Source of the DNA: Luminiphilus sp.
GTDB taxonomy: Bacteria; Pseudomonadota; Gammaproteobacteria; Pseudomonadales; Halieaceae
Direction: 5' to 3'
Assembly (NCBI GenBank): GCA_029253085.1
Contig: JAQXAF010000011.1
Location: forward strand, 1-40,324
Length of the DNA stretch: 40,324 nt
The notes under the pieces are model-generated. The model saw only the letters and a list, made by a program, of their open reading frames with translations. It did no database searches and was not told the DNA's origin. The position numbers were made by a program, and so were the translations under genes. Positions 1 to 6,143 of the stretch are shown here, in pieces (position 1 is the stretch's first letter; the number at the start of each line of letters is the position of its first letter).

Positions 1-168
1 GATTGCGCGAAAAACATGCTGCTTGATGGTGCTAGCGTGGAAGCTGTCGCCGCCGACTTAGGCTATGAGAATGCCGCCAATTTTCGGCGCTCCTTCCGTT
101 CGGTTAATCGCTGCTCACCAACACAGTGGATGAAAGATTTTCGCCAAGGAGCCCTAGCCGACCGTTAG
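1..168 (+). CDS. AraC-family transcriptional regulator, C-terminal fragment
   Basis: The window opens inside this gene; 55 codons remain in frame 1 before the TAG at 166-168. The residues read as the second helix-turn-helix of an AraC/XylS DNA-binding domain: a segment like LLDGASVEAVAADLGYENA followed by NFRRSFRSVNRCSPTQW, which matches the family pattern (A..LGY...S.F.R.F....G.SP..W). The N-terminal sensing domain lies outside the window, so the effector is unknown. The stop codon overlaps the stop of the convergent SDR gene by four bases, so the two genes end on each other without a terminator. Confidence 0.85.
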   Translation, partial: DCAKNMLLDGASVEAVAADLGYENAANFRRSFRSVNRCSPTQWMKDFRQGALADR

Positions 169-947
169 GAAGGCTCTGGACGGGCCTTTATCCGAAAAAA
201 CCTACGGGTCCAGACCGATTGGAATAAGGGGTCTAACCATCGGTATAAACGGCCCGACACTACGATTGACTTACCGGCTTCTGCGCCTCGAATACCATCA
301 TTAACAACGGTGTCAGCTCCGTACCAAAGCCAACGTGGCATACCGGCCTTCATGTCGGTAAGGCCAGCAGTTTCATGGAAATCGGTGTGAGTGAAACCCG
401 GGCACAGTGCGGTGACATGCACGCCCTGACCAGCTACGGTTAAATTAAGCTCCTCAGACACGGCTATTAAATAGGTCTTGCTGGGGCCGTAGTTGCAGCC
501 CCCTGACCGAGGAATTCGCCCCGCTACTGAAGCCACATTAACCACCCGACCAAATCCTCTATTCGCCATAGCGGGCACAAATCGATGACATAACTCCGTA
601 ACCGATAGCATCATAAGCTGGAAAAATGCTTGCTGCTCCGACCAGTCGCGGTCCTCCAGTAAATCTGGGCCCGCGATACCGGCATTGTTAATCAGCCAGT
701 CGATCTGAAGCGTGTTTTTATCGCAAAACTGCTCAATAAGCAGCGGCGCACTGGGTTGGGCGAGATCAGCAACCAATGTTTTCACCGTCACGTCATAATC
801 TCGCGTCAACGAATCTGCTAGAGCCTTAAGACGCTCGCCACGACGGGCCACCAACACTAAATTGAGGCCTCTTGCGGCCAACTGCCTTGCAAACTCAGTA
901 CCCAAGCCTGCTGATGCACCTGTAACCAGAGCGTAACTTTGCGTCAT
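165..947 (-). CDS. SDR-family NAD(P)-dependent oxidoreductase
   Basis: A 260-residue classical short-chain dehydrogenase/reductase. The cofactor loop TGASAGLG is at residues 9-16, NNAG at 87-90, and the catalytic Ser140, Tyr153 and Lys157 (YGPSK) are all present, so it should be an active soluble oxidoreductase. An Arg-Arg pair after the second strand (VARRGERL, 33-40) suggests preference for NADPH; this is inference. It is the last gene of a minus-strand group with the GST-like, DUF3429 and DUF3833 genes, starting 24 bases after the GST gene ends. In other gammaproteobacteria SDR and DUF3833 genes often sit together near lipid-modification genes, so a lipid or carbonyl substrate is possible but unproven. 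Confidence 0.9.
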   Translation of the reverse strand: MTQSYALVTGASAGLGTEFARQLAARGLNLVLVARRGERLKALADSLTRDYDVTVKTLVADLAQPSAPLLIEQFCDKNTLQIDWLINNAGIAGPDLLEDRDWSEQQAFFQLMMLSVTELCHRFVPAMANRGFGRVVNVASVAGRIPRSGGCNYGPSKTYLIAVSEELNLTVAGQGVHVTALCPGFTHTDFHETAGLTDMKAGMPRWLWYGADTVVNDGIRGAEAGKSIVVSGRLYRWLDPLFQSVWTRRFFRIKARPEPS

Positions 948-971
948 ATTCCCTCCCGAGCAATCAATTGG

Positions 972-1910
972 TCAATCGGGGGCATAGGGCCTCAAGCCGT
1001 AACCCGCGCGAGGAAAATGAACATGCACGACACCAAAATCCTCTGTTTGTCTTGCGATAACATAGCGCTCGGTCGTTGCAGCAACCAAACAGCCCATGAC
1101 AGGGACCTGACCATAATCAACAGGCGCCACACTAACCTGCTGATTCAAATAGTCGTGGGTTTCAGACGGAGGCAAGGGTCTAGGTTCTGACTGAGCAGCC
1201 ATTGTGAAAGCAGCCGCGGGTTCAAGTTCAAATCGCTCGCCATGACCCGGTGCCAGCATTGCGTTATACCAGCGATTGAGATTTTCGAGTGCTTCTGGCA
1301 AGGCCGCCCCGACAAGATCCATCTTAAACTTGACCGGGTGTATCGCCGCGAAATCGGCATAACCGGGACGCTCTCCGTCAAGAAACGCGCGATCTTTAAG
1401 AACTGCATCTAAGTCTGAGAAGAACGTTGAAATTACGGTGCCAGCGCGCTTTCCTGAGGGCGGCCGAATCGTCGCATCTTTCATCATGCTCTTGCGGTCT
1501 TTAAAAAATCGATAGGTTTGGCGAATTCCAAACTGACGCAACAGCGCACCCAAAATTTTCATAGGTGGCTCACTGGTGATTACCGAGAAGAAGACATCGC
1601 CCTGAGCGTGGGCGACTAACGCCTCACAGTCTTGACTCACGGAGTCGGGGTGCAACGCTGCGCGATCGGTCTCCCTAGCGATTTCCAGAGAAATTAGCGC
1701 CGTATCACAAAACAAGTCAGCACCTTGCTGCGCAACCGGTATGCGTCGGTATCCCCCTGTCAGTGGATCGAGATTGGGGCGAGGAGGCATTGGCGGCGAG
1801 ATCACCGAATGCCAAGCCAATTTTGTATGGCCAAACATCAACCGTATTTTCTCGGCGTAGGGCGACGCTTCGTAATGATGCAGGACCCATGGGTTTTCAC
1901 GATCAGTCAT
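972..1910 (-). CDS. Glutathione S-transferase-fold protein (long, 312 aa)
   Basis: The N-terminus has a thioredoxin-like GST domain: a short strand (VLHHYEASPYAEKIRLMFG, residues 9-27) with the SPYAEKIR segment typical of the glutathione site, a cis-Pro region around RRIPVAQQG and an acidic/Ser segment (CDTALISLEI) that normally binds the gamma-glutamyl end. The middle is an alpha-helical GST C-domain (about 100-220), with GYADFAAIHPV corresponding to the N-cap region of the GST core. About 80 extra residues at the C-terminus are beyond a usual GST. The start ATG has GGGAG upstream. Substrate unknown. It sits between DUF3429 and the SDR gene in the same direction. Confidence 0.8.
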   Translation of the reverse strand: MTDRENPWVLHHYEASPYAEKIRLMFGHTKLAWHSVISPPMPPRPNLDPLTGGYRRIPVAQQGADLFCDTALISLEIARETDRAALHPDSVSQDCEALVAHAQGDVFFSVITSEPPMKILGALLRQFGIRQTYRFFKDRKSMMKDATIRPPSGKRAGTVISTFFSDLDAVLKDRAFLDGERPGYADFAAIHPVKFKMDLVGAALPEALENLNRWYNAMLAPGHGERFELEPAAAFTMAAQSEPRPLPPSETHDYLNQQVSVAPVDYGQVPVMGCLVAATTERYVIARQTEDFGVVHVHFPRAGYGLRPYAPD

Positions 1911-1968
1911 TGTTGCTCCCTATGATAATTTTTCTGCATTTCGAGCCTGTCGATGCGAACCAGATAAC

Positions 1969-2406
1969 TCAGTCCAACATGACAACGTTCAGCCCAACAT
2001 ACAGCACGTGAGCGAGCACTACCCCAAGAGTCAACTGCGCGCGCATCGCAGAGTACCAATCTCGGGTCTCTTGAGTCCGCCGCTCGAACCAAAGCAACGA
2101 CAAATAACCGAGCATCAGTAAGAGCACGGCCAACACCACCTGTGCCGTTAGCACGCTCGCAACAGCAAAAACGACAATGCCGTTGCTAATGACCAGATGT
2201 CCAATTTGTTCACGATCAGGCAGACCACGAGCGTACCCCCACAAGGCGCCCGAGAGAAAGCAAAGGATTGCTAGCGAGTAAATAACGAAGCCCTGAACTG
2301 ACAATGCTCTGGGATAATCTTTTAAAAAGGCCACTCCGCCTAACAGCAAATAAAAGGGGGTGAGCCCAGCAAAGCCGAGAGCTTGCGTTGTCAATTGGGA
2401 GCGCAT
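1969..2406 (-). CDS. DUF3429 inner-membrane protein
   Basis: A 145-residue, strongly hydrophobic protein with about five membrane segments and the pattern of the DUF3429 family (LGFAGLTPFYLL near the start, then SFLSGALWGY-like segment at about residues 50-58, and a LWFERRTQ loop). Function unknown in the family. Its ATG overlaps the end of the upstream DUF3833 gene by 16 bases, so the two are translationally coupled. Downstream is the GST-fold gene, 58 bases away. Confidence 0.8.
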   Translation of the reverse strand: MRSQLTTQALGFAGLTPFYLLLGGVAFLKDYPRALSVQGFVIYSLAILCFLSGALWGYARGLPDREQIGHLVISNGIVVFAVASVLTAQVVLAVLLLMLGYLSLLWFERRTQETRDWYSAMRAQLTLGVVLAHVLYVGLNVVMLD

Positions 2407-2942
2407 TCAACCTCGGTATCGGGGTGGCGAATAATGGTGAGCAGAATCTCACCAACACCCACTCCGAATTTTGTCATTTGCGACTGATTGACAACCACAT
2501 GTTCGCTTATTCGATACATACGATCGTCGACCCTAACATCGACTGTAGTGTCCTCTAACTGAATACGCAGCGTGTAGTCCAGCAGGAAAGCACTGCCATA
2601 CCAGCGGCCTACACCCTCCCCAACGACATCGCCAGCCGTGGCAATATACGTCTGGTTGGCACCCGGCGTTAGCGTCCACACGCGCTTTTGCTCTTCACCA
2701 TCGTCGAAAATAAAGTCTTCGTCTAAGGTTCCAATGCCGTCAGTCCAACACGCGCTAATATCGGCATTGAATTGACGTATTGCACCACCCTGACGGTCTC
2801 TGACCACGCCGTGCGCGGTTAAGAAACCTGAGAAAAAATCTTCAGGCTGCAGCTGTGGGCCCAGAATCTCGTGGTCCTGCAGATCGGCAGACCCACAACC
2901 CACCAACAGCAAAAGTGTGGCGCAGCTGATGAGCCTGCACAC
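2391..2942 (-). CDS. DUF3833-family lipoprotein
   Basis: From a GTG start at 2942 the product is 183 residues beginning with a short signal and lipobox (LLLVGC, Cys16), then a soluble domain matching DUF3833: LGPQLQPEDFFSGFLTAHGV, DEDFIFDDGE, and SAFLLDYTL. Family members are periplasm-facing lipoproteins of unknown function. The frame is open further upstream to 3065, but that extension would run through two strong terminator hairpins and would destroy the lipoprotein signal, so I reject it. There is no clear ribosome binding site. The start lies 14 bases after the T-run of the second terminator, so transcription must read through the leader at 2957-3107 or start within a few bases. Confidence 0.75.
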   Translation of the reverse strand: MCRLISCATLLLLVGCGSADLQDHEILGPQLQPEDFFSGFLTAHGVVRDRQGGAIRQFNADISACWTDGIGTLDEDFIFDDGEEQKRVWTLTPGANQTYIATAGDVVGEGVGRWYGSAFLLDYTLRIQLEDTTVDVRVDDRMYRISEHVVVNQSQMTKFGVGVGEILLTIIRHPDTEVECAPN

Positions 2943-2956
2943 TGTCGCTTGGGGAG

Positions 2957-2984
2957 AAAAAAAAGCCCGGCCACATGGGCCGGG
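2957..2984 (-). terminator. Intrinsic terminator 2 (proximal to DUF3833 gene)
   Basis: Minus-strand hairpin with stem CCCGGCC (plus 2966-2972) and GGCCGGG (2978-2984), 5-base loop, followed after one C by eight T residues (plus 2964-2957). A textbook rho-independent terminator. The plus strand has no T-run, so it works on minus-strand transcripts only. Confidence 0.85.
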
Positions 2985-2987
2985 GAG

Positions 2988-3012
2988 AAAAAACCATCTG
3001 GGGGAAGATGGT
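2988..3012 (-). terminator. Intrinsic terminator 1 (tandem with the next one)
   Basis: Minus-strand hairpin with stem ACCATCT / AGATGGT (plus 3012-3006 and 2999-2993), 6-base C-rich loop, followed directly by six T residues (plus 2993-2988). It ends only three bases before the second terminator stem. Its 5' arm (CATCTT at plus 3010-3005) is also complementary to AAGATG at plus 3068-3063 in the leader. Confidence 0.75.
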
Positions 3013-3107
3013 CTAAAGCTATCGCAAGACATACTGGGACTAACCCTGTGGTCGTTCCAATGCATCTTGTACGACCCTATTTTCAGTATGGATCACACAA
3101 GATTTGG
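3013..3107 (-). promoter_or_regulatory. Structured leader RNA / possible attenuation switch or sRNA body
   Basis: Read on the minus strand, this stretch can fold as a three-way junction: outer stem CATACTG (plus 3090-3084) with CAGTATG (3036-3030), hairpin GGTCGT / ACGACC (plus 3076-3071 and 3055-3050) and a short GGG/CCC hairpin (3046-3044, 3038-3036). The loop of the second hairpin contains ACAAGAT (plus 3070-3064), which pairs with an upstream ATCTTGT (plus 3103-3097), extended by CCAA/TTGG after a 3-base bulge. The same loop can pair through AAGATG with the 5' arm of terminator 1. Competing helices ahead of two terminators fit an attenuator. I recognise no known riboswitch core. The promoter was not located. 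Confidence 0.5.
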
Positions 3108-3577
3108 TACGAACAGAAACTTAAAGCTCGCGCTAAGAGTTTCGCCCAACACCTGACTCCATAAACATTTAATTTTGATCGCCACCCACAGCCTTAAAAC
3201 ACAGGAACCAAATTTCGCTGAATGATTGCTAGCGGTTAACCATAAAGATCGAGTTCGGTGCATGCGGATTTTCCCTGACCAGGCTACGCAAAATTTTTCC
3301 CCCGCAGTTCCTAGGGGTAAACCCTAATGTAAAGGGCATATTCCTAGGCCACGCTCAGAGGTTTAAATCCTCGCCGCAAGCCAGCATCTCCTGTGAAATA
3401 ACCATCAAAAATTCCCAAGCGCTTCTGGCGTCGGTTTCTCCAGTACCAGCCCGTCAAAATTTGCTCGGACAACTATTATTCAAATTAAAAATTTTAGACT
3501 GCTTGTCACAAACTCAAAATACCAATATTTGTACCAAGTCCAATTTTCCCCTCTGCATTACAAGAGCTTATTAGCCC

Positions 3578-3632
3578 AACAGGAGAAAAAATATTAAGTA
3601 TTAGCAAGCTTTTAAAGCTTCCTGTTGCTAAT
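3578..3632. repeat. Overlapping inverted repeats upstream of rmf
   Basis: ATTAGCAA (3600-3607) pairs with TTGCTAAT (3625-3632) around a near-palindrome AAGCTTTTAAAGCTT (3606-3620). A second pair, AACAGGA (3578-3584) and TCCTGTT (3620-3626), overlaps the right arm of the first, so only one can form at a time. No T-run follows. It could be an operator region or a structured transcript; role unknown. Confidence 0.4.
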
Positions 3633-3865
3633 TAGAACCAATCAACCCTCGACAGCTGTTGTTGCTTCTGTTTTTATCTGGGTTGTGCAGACCTATGTAA
3701 ATGACTCAAAGATTTATCCTGCCAGCTGTCAACTACGGCAGCGTTATTATGGCACCGTAAGAGTTATGGCCCATTGAGGCGCACCCACTCAACACAGGCC
3801 TGCCGGCTACTCTGCTCCCATTTCCCTCATTTGCGATTGATAGACGTTGGTTCTCTGAGCCAGCG

Positions 3866-3877
3866 ATTGTTAACAAT
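3866..3877. promoter_or_regulatory. Perfect 12-bp palindrome just upstream of rmf
   Basis: ATTGTTAACAAT is a perfect dyad ending three bases before the ribosome binding site (TAGGAG, 3881-3886) of rmf. Its position suits a repressor site or 5'-UTR element. The binding protein is not known to me. Confidence 0.45.
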
Positions 3878-3894
3878 AAGTAGGAGATCAAACG

Positions 3895-4098
3895 ATGCGA
3901 AGATCTAAACGTGACATGCCTAAACGTGCTTTTGAACGCGGCTACCAAATCGGACTTTCCGGACGCTCACGTGAGACCTGCCCTCACGGCACCGGCCCCC
4001 ATAAATTGAGTTGGCTACAGGGTTGGCGCGAGGGTCGAATCGACCAATGGGAAGGCCTAACCAACATTACGGCCTGCCATAAACTGTCGGGGTTTTGA
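3895..4098 (+). CDS. rmf: Ribosome modulation factor
   Basis: A 67-residue basic protein matching RMF: the N-terminal KRD....AFERGYQIGLSGRSRETCP block and the WLQGWREGR block align with Escherichia coli RMF (RGYQAGIAGRSKEMCP, WLGGWREA). RMF binds 70S ribosomes in stationary phase or starvation, drives dimerisation into inactive 100S particles and shelters them. The product is somewhat longer at the C-terminus than the 55-residue E. coli protein. ATG with a good TAGGAG site 8 bases upstream. Transcribed alone, with a long upstream region, as expected for a growth-phase-controlled gene. Confidence 0.93.
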   Translation: MRRSKRDMPKRAFERGYQIGLSGRSRETCPHGTGPHKLSWLQGWREGRIDQWEGLTNITACHKLSGF

Positions 4099-4156
4099 CC
4101 GCCCCTCGCGATTAAGCCACCCCCAACTCTGGATCAGTCGGGGGACTTTGGGCGGT
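4098..4156 (+). terminator. Hairpin after rmf, possible terminator
   Basis: Outer arms ACCGCCC (4098-4104) and GGGCGGT (4150-4156) enclose an inner CCCCC (4120-4124) / GGGGG (4140-4144) stem. It begins at the last base of the rmf stop codon. There is no T-run after it, so it may stabilise the 3' end rather than terminate. Confidence 0.35.
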
Positions 4157-4236
4157 AAATCGCTAATTTCAAGGCTTTTGGACGTTCAAGGATGAACTCG
4201 CGACACTTGTTTTTGTCATAGAAGGACCCATATCCT

Positions 4237-5220
4237 TTGGATCCCTACGACAGAGCGATTTCCGTGACTTCGACACCACTACAACAACTTGAGCAATGGT
4301 TGTCTGGCCAGATTATTGGCCAGCACGAACTAATCCACAAATTATTGATTGCACTTTTGGCTGATGGACATCTCCTTGTTGAGGGTGCTCCAGGGCTGGC
4401 CAAGACCCGCGCAATAAAACAAATGTCCGAAGGGATCGAAGGGGGATTTCATCGCATTCAATTTACCCCCGACCTGCTTCCGGGAGATATCACAGGCACT
4501 GACATTTTTCGCCCGCAACAAGGAACCTTTGAATTTCAACAGGGACCTATTTTCAACAACCTAATACTCGCGGACGAAATTAATCGAGCGCCTGCTAAGG
4601 TCCAATCGGCGCTGCTAGAGGCCATGGCCGAGCGGCAAGTAAGCGTCGGGACGCGCACCTACCCCCTTCCCGATATGTTCCTGGTCATGGCGACCCAAAA
4701 TCCCATCGAACAAGAGGGAACCTACCCGTTACCCGAAGCTCAACTCGATCGATTTCTCATGCAGGTAAACGTGTCTTACCCAGATGCTGAGGCGGAAACA
4801 CGCATCCTCAAGTTGGCGCGCAGTGAAGCCAGCGGCACCACCCCAGCACCGCCCCAGCCACTTTCCCAGGACGCAGTCTTCAAAGCTCGCCAAGCGGTCT
4901 TATCGGTACACATGGCAGAAGCTGTTGAGGCCTACATTGTCCAGCTAGTTATTGCCACCAGAGAGCCCGGAGCTTACGACAGCGAACTCTCTGATTGGTT
5001 AGAGTTTGGGGCCAGCCCCCGGGCAACCATTGCTCTAGATCGCTGTGCTCGCGCGAATGCTTATTTACACGGACGCGACTATGTCAGTCCCGATGATGTC
5101 CAAGCAGTGGTTACCGACTGCCTCAAGCACCGCTTGATTCTGTCCTTTGAGGCAGAAGCTGCGGGGGTAACCCGTTCTCAGGTTATTAATCGGCTTCTCG
5201 AGACAGTAGCCGTAGGCTAG
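4237..5220 (+). CDS. moxR: MoxR-type AAA+ ATPase
   Basis: A 327-residue MoxR-family AAA+ protein. Walker A GAPGLAKT at residues 50-57, Walker B LILADEINRAP at 109-119, sensor-1 region ATQNP at 152-156, followed by PLPEAQLDRF, all typical. MoxR proteins act as chaperone-like ATPases that mature or insert partners, often together with von Willebrand factor A (VWA) proteins. The frame starts at a TTG with AGAAGGA (4220-4226) ten bases upstream; no in-frame ATG precedes the ATPase core, so a TTG start is likely, with a GTG nine codons on as alternative. First gene of the six-gene Bat-type operon; its stop codon overlaps the start of the DUF58 gene. Confidence 0.92.
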   Translation: MDPYDRAISVTSTPLQQLEQWLSGQIIGQHELIHKLLIALLADGHLLVEGAPGLAKTRAIKQMSEGIEGGFHRIQFTPDLLPGDITGTDIFRPQQGTFEFQQGPIFNNLILADEINRAPAKVQSALLEAMAERQVSVGTRTYPLPDMFLVMATQNPIEQEGTYPLPEAQLDRFLMQVNVSYPDAEAETRILKLARSEASGTTPAPPQPLSQDAVFKARQAVLSVHMAEAVEAYIVQLVIATREPGAYDSELSDWLEFGASPRATIALDRCARANAYLHGRDYVSPDDVQAVVTDCLKHRLILSFEAEAAGVTRSQVINRLLETVAVG

Positions 5221-6143
5221 TGGTGAAATTTCAGCCACAACAACCCAATGGCGCAGATATCGACAGCAGCACACTCATTGCTGCACGTTTTTCTGCCCGG
5301 TTCCTTGACGTCACAAAAGCGAGCCGAGCACTAGCCAATCTCGCGGGGGCGAAGCGTTCTTACCGGCGAGGCCGAGGCGTAGAATTCGATGAAGTGCGAC
5401 AGTACACCGCCGGGGATGACGTTCGAGCCATCGACTGGCGGGTGACTGCGCGGTCGGGAGAGCCCCATACCAAATTGTTTCACGAAGAGCGCGAGCGTCC
5501 TGTGCTTATCTCACTCGATCTTAGGCGGACGATGCACTTTGGCTCGCGCAACTGCTTTAAATCTGTGTTGGCGGCTCATACCGCCAGCCTACTTCTCTGG
5601 TCAGCACTTGATCGAGGCGAGCGCGTTGGAGGCATGGTGGTATCAGGTAACCGTGCAGAGGATATAAGGCCCGCCCGATCAAGACATACTGTTCTCGCTA
5701 TTATTCGTGAAATGGTCCGTTGCGATAAAAACCACGGTGATAGCGAATCTCTTGCCCTCGCTGAGCAACTCAAACAGATACAACGTATTGCGCGACCCGG
5801 CAGTGCCTTATTTCTCATCAGCGACTTCCATGACGGGTTGAACCCCGAAGTCCTGCAAACGCTGCGTCGCCTCGTACAACACGTACAGATCACGGGGGTC
5901 ATGATAAGCGATCCCCTAGAACGCAATTTACCCACAGCGGGTCGCTACGTGGTCAGCGATGCTTCAGGGCGCAGTGCTCTGGATACGGGCAATCGAAAAC
6001 TGGTGGCGCAGTTTAGCGCCGAGTTTGATGAGCATGAACAAGCCCTGCGTGAGGCCTACCAGAGTTTGCGAATACCCCTTATCCCAATAAGCACCGATCA
6101 GCTACCGCTGAACGTGCTTCAACGTTACTTTCCAGCACACTAG
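5220..6143 (+). CDS. DUF58 domain protein
   Basis: A 307-residue protein carrying the DUF58 signature RGxGxEFxxxRxYxxGDDxRxIDW at residues 51-73. DUF58 proteins are standard partners of MoxR ATPases and contain a VWA-like fold after the signature (here VLISLDLRRTM at about 95-105). Unlike many homologues it has no N-terminal membrane segments, so it is probably cytoplasmic. The GTG start shares the G of the moxR TAG stop (5218-5220); a second GTG follows at once. Downstream gene starts three bases after the stop. Confidence 0.9.
   Translation: MVKFQPQQPNGADIDSSTLIAARFSARFLDVTKASRALANLAGAKRSYRRGRGVEFDEVRQYTAGDDVRAIDWRVTARSGEPHTKLFHEERERPVLISLDLRRTMHFGSRNCFKSVLAAHTASLLLWSALDRGERVGGMVVSGNRAEDIRPARSRHTVLAIIREMVRCDKNHGDSESLALAEQLKQIQRIARPGSALFLISDFHDGLNPEVLQTLRRLVQHVQITGVMISDPLERNLPTAGRYVVSDASGRSALDTGNRKLVAQFSAEFDEHEQALREAYQSLRIPLIPISTDQLPLNVLQRYFPAH

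Follow-up and report, generated by a model that had tools for sequence, protein, structure and literature searches.

Upstream of a short minus-strand operon in Luminiphilus sp., the DNA holds a run of hairpins that ends in a T-rich tract immediately before a lipoprotein gene. The window, that is the whole stretch analysed, covers 40,324 nucleotides of contig JAQXAF010000011.1. The question raised by this locus is whether these hairpins form a sensory leader, an attenuator, a simple terminator or an RNA gene. The first-pass annotation favored a riboswitch or attenuator and offered, as an alternative, a small RNA that ends at the terminators. This alternative turns out to be the best-supported reading. 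Indeed, the locus is probably (at roughly 0.7) a member of an undescribed, conserved family of ECF11-dependent small RNAs which doubles as an operon leader in Luminiphilus.

According to this reading, transcription would begin near 3063, driven by an ECF11 (RpoE/ChrR-type) stress promoter at 3095-3070 on the minus strand. Some of the transcripts, probably the majority, would stop at the terminator at 2984-2957; the product would be a small RNA, about 107 nt long, in which a C-rich loop is exposed. The remaining ones would read through into the DUF3833-DUF3429-GST-SDR genes. The RNA would act in trans, its C-rich loop pairing with G-rich ribosome-binding sites. The start site and the terminating share are both inferred.

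The promoter

Two elements define the promoter:

3095-3090, minus strand: -35 element TGATCC of an ECF11-type promoter, identical in 29/29 same-genus loci and corresponding to the published ECF11 consensus
3073-3070, minus strand: -10 element CGTA, exactly 16 bases past the -35 element, with a 16-base spacer in 29/29 loci

TGATCC-N16-CGTA is thus found in all 29 aligned same-genus loci, the window among them, with spacer letters that vary and a length that does not. TGATCC and CGTA about 16 bases apart is the arrangement expected of an ECF11 promoter. Among published ECF11 examples, the Shewanella RpoE2 promoter carries TGATCC and CGTAAT, and that of P. syringae PSPTO_1043 reads TGATCC-N16-CGTA. 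The promoter of Rhodobacter Pos19 is given as TGATCC(N15)GCGTA in the part of the source available (PMC5036791).

ChrR, the anti-sigma partner, scores above the cut-off in 42 of 58 genomes, including 30 of 36 same-genus relatives; it does not in the window's own genome, itself 79% complete. In genome G016, the ECF sigma gene adjoins chrR, and a divergent FAD amine oxidase lies behind the same TGATCC/CGTA motif. Genome-wide, the motif occurs at 113 places in 37 genomes of the genus versus 47 for the reversed pattern, a mild excess, and at 6 versus 5 places in the window's genome. As the motif is frequent by chance, the case for ECF11 rests on its conserved position; the transcript would depend on an ECF11 sigma factor. 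A sigma-70 scan of positions 1-6000 returned two sites, fewer than the 4.7 averaged over shuffles, and neither lies ahead of the RNA.

The predicted RNA and its conservation

Downstream of the promoter, the following features are recognized:

2957-3063, minus strand: predicted RNA of about 107 nt, its start placed 6-8 nt after CGTA and its end at the T-run
3012-2993, minus strand: hairpin 1 with the C-rich loop ACCAUCUUCCCCCAGAUGGU, a likely pairing seed in view of its conserved core and supported stem
2984-2966, minus strand: terminator hairpin 2, CCCGGCC/GGCCGGG, a strong intrinsic terminator in the pattern scan
2957-2964, minus strand: T8 tract of the terminator, encoding part of Phe-Phe in the lipoprotein frame

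The fold of 2957-3063 reaches -37.3 kcal/mol (z -3.47; 1/200 shuffles as good), and the predicted size in relatives is roughly 76-120 nt. The 13-nt core of hairpin 1, CATCTTCCCCCAG, is identical in 29/29 loci. Covariation was assessed on alignment A3, which consists of 42 chosen distinct loci from eight genera, all matching, fitted to the covariance model, with the four g34 candidates (L200, L333-L335) excluded. In this alignment, 98.4% of cells are paired and 8 pairs are doubly changed, and 0/500 shuffles reach either value. In hairpin 2, 6/8 pairs are changed on both sides, and the stem of hairpin 1 is supported as well, its CCAUC..GAUGG stem being nearly invariant across the eight genera. 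Pair counts on 29 sequences (25 distinct) also support both stems.

The first-pass annotation had described two tandem terminators. Hairpin 2 followed by T8 is indeed a strong one; hairpin 1 followed by T6 exists too, but is not listed as a terminator by the pattern scan. As a conserved feature the tandem fails: in the DUF3429-only clade (12/29 loci), the 8 bases behind hairpin 1 hold 1-2 T and form no T-run, so that the conserved role of this hairpin is not termination. The invariant loop would fit a pairing seed.

Strong conservation of the 5' part of the RNA (GGAACGACCACAGG..GGTCCCAGTATGTCTTGC; window 3063-3013) is confined to the window's subclade (L001-L005, L114, L122, L129). Outside this subclade the 5' part is different and mostly shorter.

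As the first-pass annotation had supposed, no known class fits: among 4227 Rfam models, none reaches its gathering score in the window or in 15 related loci. Membership of RF02837 (anti-hemB; 32.3 bits versus a gathering score of 49.5) and of RF02278 (Betaproteobacteria toxic small RNA; 21.3 bits versus 50), matched at E-value level, was rejected. Neither a description of the RNA nor its core sequence was found in the open-licence literature searched.

Range in genomes

Related DNA is present in the window's genome, in 28 of the 36 relatives from its genus, among them HTCC2080 and L. syltensis NOR5-1B (Luminiphilus / OM60-NOR5 clade, Halieaceae), and in 0/21 genomes of other families. When 84,980 genomes, one for each species, were scanned with a pattern, 47 loci emerged, 44 of them of Luminiphilus/Halieaceae type. 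A few of the 44 bear wider or other labels, and many lie on the same contigs as the 29-locus set. The promoter is present in all 44, once as TGATCT. DUF3833 or DUF3429 follows in 42, whereas the stretches of the other two end too early. The remaining three loci, with neither promoter nor downstream match, look like chance.

With the covariance model at 53 bits or more, the module is detected in 48/57 genomes of the genus. Nine have no match of this strength; in two of them (G030, G036) the promoter sits at a contig end. Elsewhere in the family, it is accepted in at least 13/83 genomes from seven genera, acceptance outside the genus requiring the hairpin together with the promoter and/or DUF3833 or DUF3429. 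Family matches in G147, G092 and G105 (L193, L199, L201) have neither promoter nor DUF3833, those in G065, G003, G002 and G014 were rejected on reading, and a second weak match in G066 (L328) has no promoter.

Across the order, the model gives weak matches in 85/194 genomes; apart from the window and G068, which were inspected individually, they are treated as terminator look-alikes. The promoter-plus-hairpin pattern, which misses members with other loops or spacings, occurs in 6/390 genomes of the order, five of them Halieaceae and the sixth (G500) taken as chance, and in 1/369 of a class sample, the window itself. These order- and class-wide patterns give no convincing member beyond the family.

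One genus of the family shows a different arrangement. At L333, L334, L335 and L200 (genomes G095, G094, G096 and G097), an ECF11-like promoter TGATCC-N17-CGTA precedes three structures: a short 5' hairpin, another one containing a CCCACCCCC stretch, and finally a terminator. The stretches taken there contain no DUF3833 match. These loci may represent a sister small RNA.

The downstream operon

Behind the terminator, the window encodes four genes:

2391-3032, minus strand: DUF3833 lipoprotein (Pfam), 213 aa from the ATG inside the RNA, or 183 aa from the GTG at 2942 proposed in the first-pass annotation
1969-2406, minus strand: DUF3429 membrane-type protein (Pfam PF11911)
972-1910, minus strand: glutathione S-transferase family protein (Pfam GST_N_3, GST_C)
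165-947, minus strand: short-chain dehydrogenase (Pfam PF00106)

All 29 loci stand directly upstream of DUF3833 (17, usually followed by DUF3429) or of DUF3429 alone (12). It had been argued that the space between the T-run and the GTG leaves no room for a promoter and that the genes depend on read-through. Both points hold, the latter across the genus, where an SD sequence or the gene itself comes close behind the T-run. The RNA has its own promoter and an intrinsic terminator upstream of a gene, which is the arrangement of a 5' UTR-derived small RNA.

On the other side of the promoter, about 1 kb of the window (3165-4236) has no listed open frame longer than 71 aa on either strand. The plus-strand operon beyond it presumably resembles MoxR/von Willebrand-type genes.

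In some loci, the RNA need not be tied to read-through. At L192 (G066), promoter, hairpin and terminator are flanked by a divergent frame on one side and by a convergent gene on the other; the 7,879-base contig has no DUF3833 match, so that this copy is free of the operon. In L186, L188 and L191, the RNA promoter (with a 17-base spacer in L191) is joined by another ECF11-like site, placed after the terminator and before DUF3833; L187 has such a site only at the latter position, with no promoter ahead of the RNA. The free-standing L192 and the second promoters of L186-L188 and L191 argue for an RNA gene in its own right.

Within the order, 56 genomes have the DUF3833 gene, and thirty of these loci were read. 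Five of them have no RNA and carry TGATC[CT]-N16-CGTA at most 150 nt from the gene; four of the five are outside the family, three of these four from one family. TGATCT-N16-CGTA stands directly upstream of DUF3833 at L344, L348, L350 and L365, in other families of the order. This suggests that DUF3833 belongs to ECF11 regulons more widely. The history may have been that of an operon with its own ECF11 promoter, upstream of which the RNA unit arrived; Luminiphilus would then have lost the second promoter, leaving read-through.

A lipoprotein frame through the terminator

In the window, the lipoprotein frame stays open through both hairpins up to an ATG inside the RNA, at 3032. Read from this ATG, the terminator stem would encode the charged Gly-Arg part of the signal peptide, and the U-tract Phe-Phe. 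The window's group comprises L001-L005, L114, L122, L008, L009 and L198, and in 10/10 of its readable members the hairpin 1 frame (Pro-Ser-Ser-Pro-Arg-Trp) runs through the terminator into DUF3833, an ATG lying within the RNA. Since the frame is continuous, length differences from T-run to gene are multiples of three within this group. Counted over 52 distinct loci with a downstream gene, fusion is found in 22: 9/9 in the window's group (L009 being added separately) and 13/43 elsewhere, which is the chance level. L129, a member of the window's subclade whose terminator contains Ns, is counted among the 43.

Start codons tell a similar story. HTCC2080 (L002) has no ATG, GTG or TTG from the T-run to the codons just before the lipobox cysteine, and the window's group has no SD-preceded ATG or GTG past the T-run, whereas in 21/22 other DUF3833 loci a start codon located there is preceded by an SD-like sequence. 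The SD test is loose, accepting any of six tetramers; it flagged as SD-preceded a TTG inside the hydrophobic stretch of L122 and left L196 unflagged, its aligned start reaching the T-run. The fused frame in the window's group and the SD-preceded starts past the T-run elsewhere make it probable that translation of the lipoprotein begins within the RNA, at 3032, in the window's lineage and that ribosomes must cross the terminator. A choice between RNA and mRNA that depends on translation is plausible. That a single RNA stretch serves at once as seed hairpin, terminator and start of the signal peptide, with a ribosome at the ATG at 3032 gating small RNA versus operon mRNA, is a more tentative proposal, to which we give about one chance in four.

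Alternative readings

The leader proposed by the first-pass annotation was a three-way junction with mutually exclusive helices, as in a riboswitch or attenuator. Its helices can form: the stems CATACTG/CAGTATG, GGTCGT/ACGACC and GGG/CCC can pair in the window, base 3036 serving two of them, and the loop segment ACAAGATG can pair with ATCTTGT or, partially, with the CATCTT of hairpin 1. The whole region folds well (161 nt: z -3.84, 0/200 shuffles as good; 108 nt without hairpin 2: z -2.41, 5/200). Its minimum-energy fold is not the three-way junction, however, and contains a 14-bp hairpin across the -35/-10 region that shows no clear covariation excess. Compared across 8 close relatives, the proposed stems are not conserved beyond expectation, 49 to 500 of 500 shuffles matching the observed values; because base 3036 is used twice, one pair each of stems 1 and 3 was dropped from this comparison. 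Stem 1 reaches 72.9% pairing, and a double change occurs in it once. All 8 close relatives keep stem 2 paired, but this stem consists of the -10 region and its mate, with 4/6 pairs invariant. The AAGATG required by the competing helix is present in the window only (1/8 close relatives). Conservation falls instead on the promoter, on hairpin 1 and on terminator 2. As the helices overlap the ECF11 promoter, and a transcript starting near 3063 would leave much of the 5' side of the junction untranscribed from it, a riboswitch or other ligand-sensing leader is hardly credible.

Two further explanations keep the promoter and terminator and dispense with a function in trans. The locus could be a cis attenuator, in which translation starts at the ATG at 3032, ribosomes crossing the hairpins suppress termination and the short RNA is a by-product. 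The frame fused throughout the readable members of the window's group, and the start codons past the T-run being SD-preceded in the other DUF3833 loci and not in this group, are what such a device would leave. Yet fusion falls to chance elsewhere, where hairpin and loop are conserved equally, L192 stands free, and in four loci an ECF11-like promoter lies behind the terminator; attenuation alone is therefore unlikely. A plain insulator, with leaky terminators that merely damp an ECF11-driven operon and an RNA without function, is less probable still. A promoter alone does suffice at the five RNA-less DUF3833 loci of the 30, but a core identical in 29/29 loci and a near-invariant CCAUC..GAUGG stem exceed what a terminator needs. 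The small-RNA reading also has a precedent in Pos19, since ECF11-dependent small RNAs exist.

Candidate targets

If the small RNA pairs through its loop, complementary sites may lie before start codons. In 11 genomes, TGGGGGAAG-N0-8-ATG occurs at 58 listed places versus 20 for the reversed control; 11 of the 58 are the RNA locus on the opposite strand, and the remaining 44 distinct places were all fetched and read. The best candidate, weakly indicated by sequence complementarity, is a sigma-54-activator gene (PF00158), in which CTGGGGGAAGC directly precedes the ATG in 11/19 homologues. CTGGGGGAAGC has 10 nt complementary to the loop, and the duplex is predicted at -21.0 kcal/mol versus -6.0 for an invented SD string. 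In one homologue the sequence is CTGGGGGACAC, the site is absent from seven distant ones, and the window's own genome gives no match to the gene at the cut-off used. Four of the 11 site carriers (L300-L303, Luminiphilus) are frames of 113-115 aa, two of them with a TGA inside the match.

Similarly, CTGGGGGA before ATG occurs at 87 places in 8 genomes versus 22 for the reversed control, 8 being the RNA locus. GGGGGA is itself SD-like, and a following AG shows no clear enrichment; for these reasons, the targets are no more than candidates.

Comparison with known systems

In its control, the predicted RNA is like Pos19; its anatomy is close to that of RhlS and UpsM, while the C-rich loop is a likeness to GsrN. 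We know of no C-loop in RhlS. The Rfam families RF02837 and RF02278 share a hairpin followed by a GC-rich terminator hairpin, and RF02278 also a C/U-rich loop.

As described in the available part of the source, Pos19 (RSs0019) of Rhodobacter sphaeroides is a small RNA behind an RpoE/ChrR promoter, TGATCC-N15-GCGTA, and carries a small reading frame, counted here as a further likeness (PMC5036791). By the same description, it differs in its 219 nt, in a terminator without the usual poly-U and in its position between cxp and fadB, not at the head of an operon (PMC5036791). RhlS of Pseudomonas aeruginosa likewise arises by termination within a 5' UTR that is also read through, but, in the portion of the report available, under quorum-sensing control and not ECF11 (PMC6786874). 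In Rhodobacter sphaeroides, a Rho-independent terminator in a 5' UTR yields UpsM ahead of an operon; in the accessible text, this UTR measures 268 nt, belongs to the dcw cluster, undergoes RNase E processing and has another promoter type (PMC5089854). GsrN of Caulobacter, compared by description only, is a stress-sigma small RNA that pairs, through its C-rich loop, with a G-tract of the katG mRNA leader, whereas its sigma factor is, in the extract at hand, sigma-T of the general stress response (PMC5869019).

Significance

If the small-RNA reading is true, one stress signal would give rise both to a small regulatory RNA and, by read-through, to an operon. The singlet-oxygen (ECF11) response would then have an RNA arm in abundant coastal bacteria, in a family of which some strains use bacteriochlorophyll a, according to the part of the source available (PMC4391266). 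The locus would offer a conserved, well-defined RNA whose inducer is obvious, and a terminator that doubles as signal-peptide code would be a compact test case for translation-coupled termination. It would also link DUF3833 and DUF3429, domains of unknown function, to a photo-oxidative stress regulon in Halieaceae.
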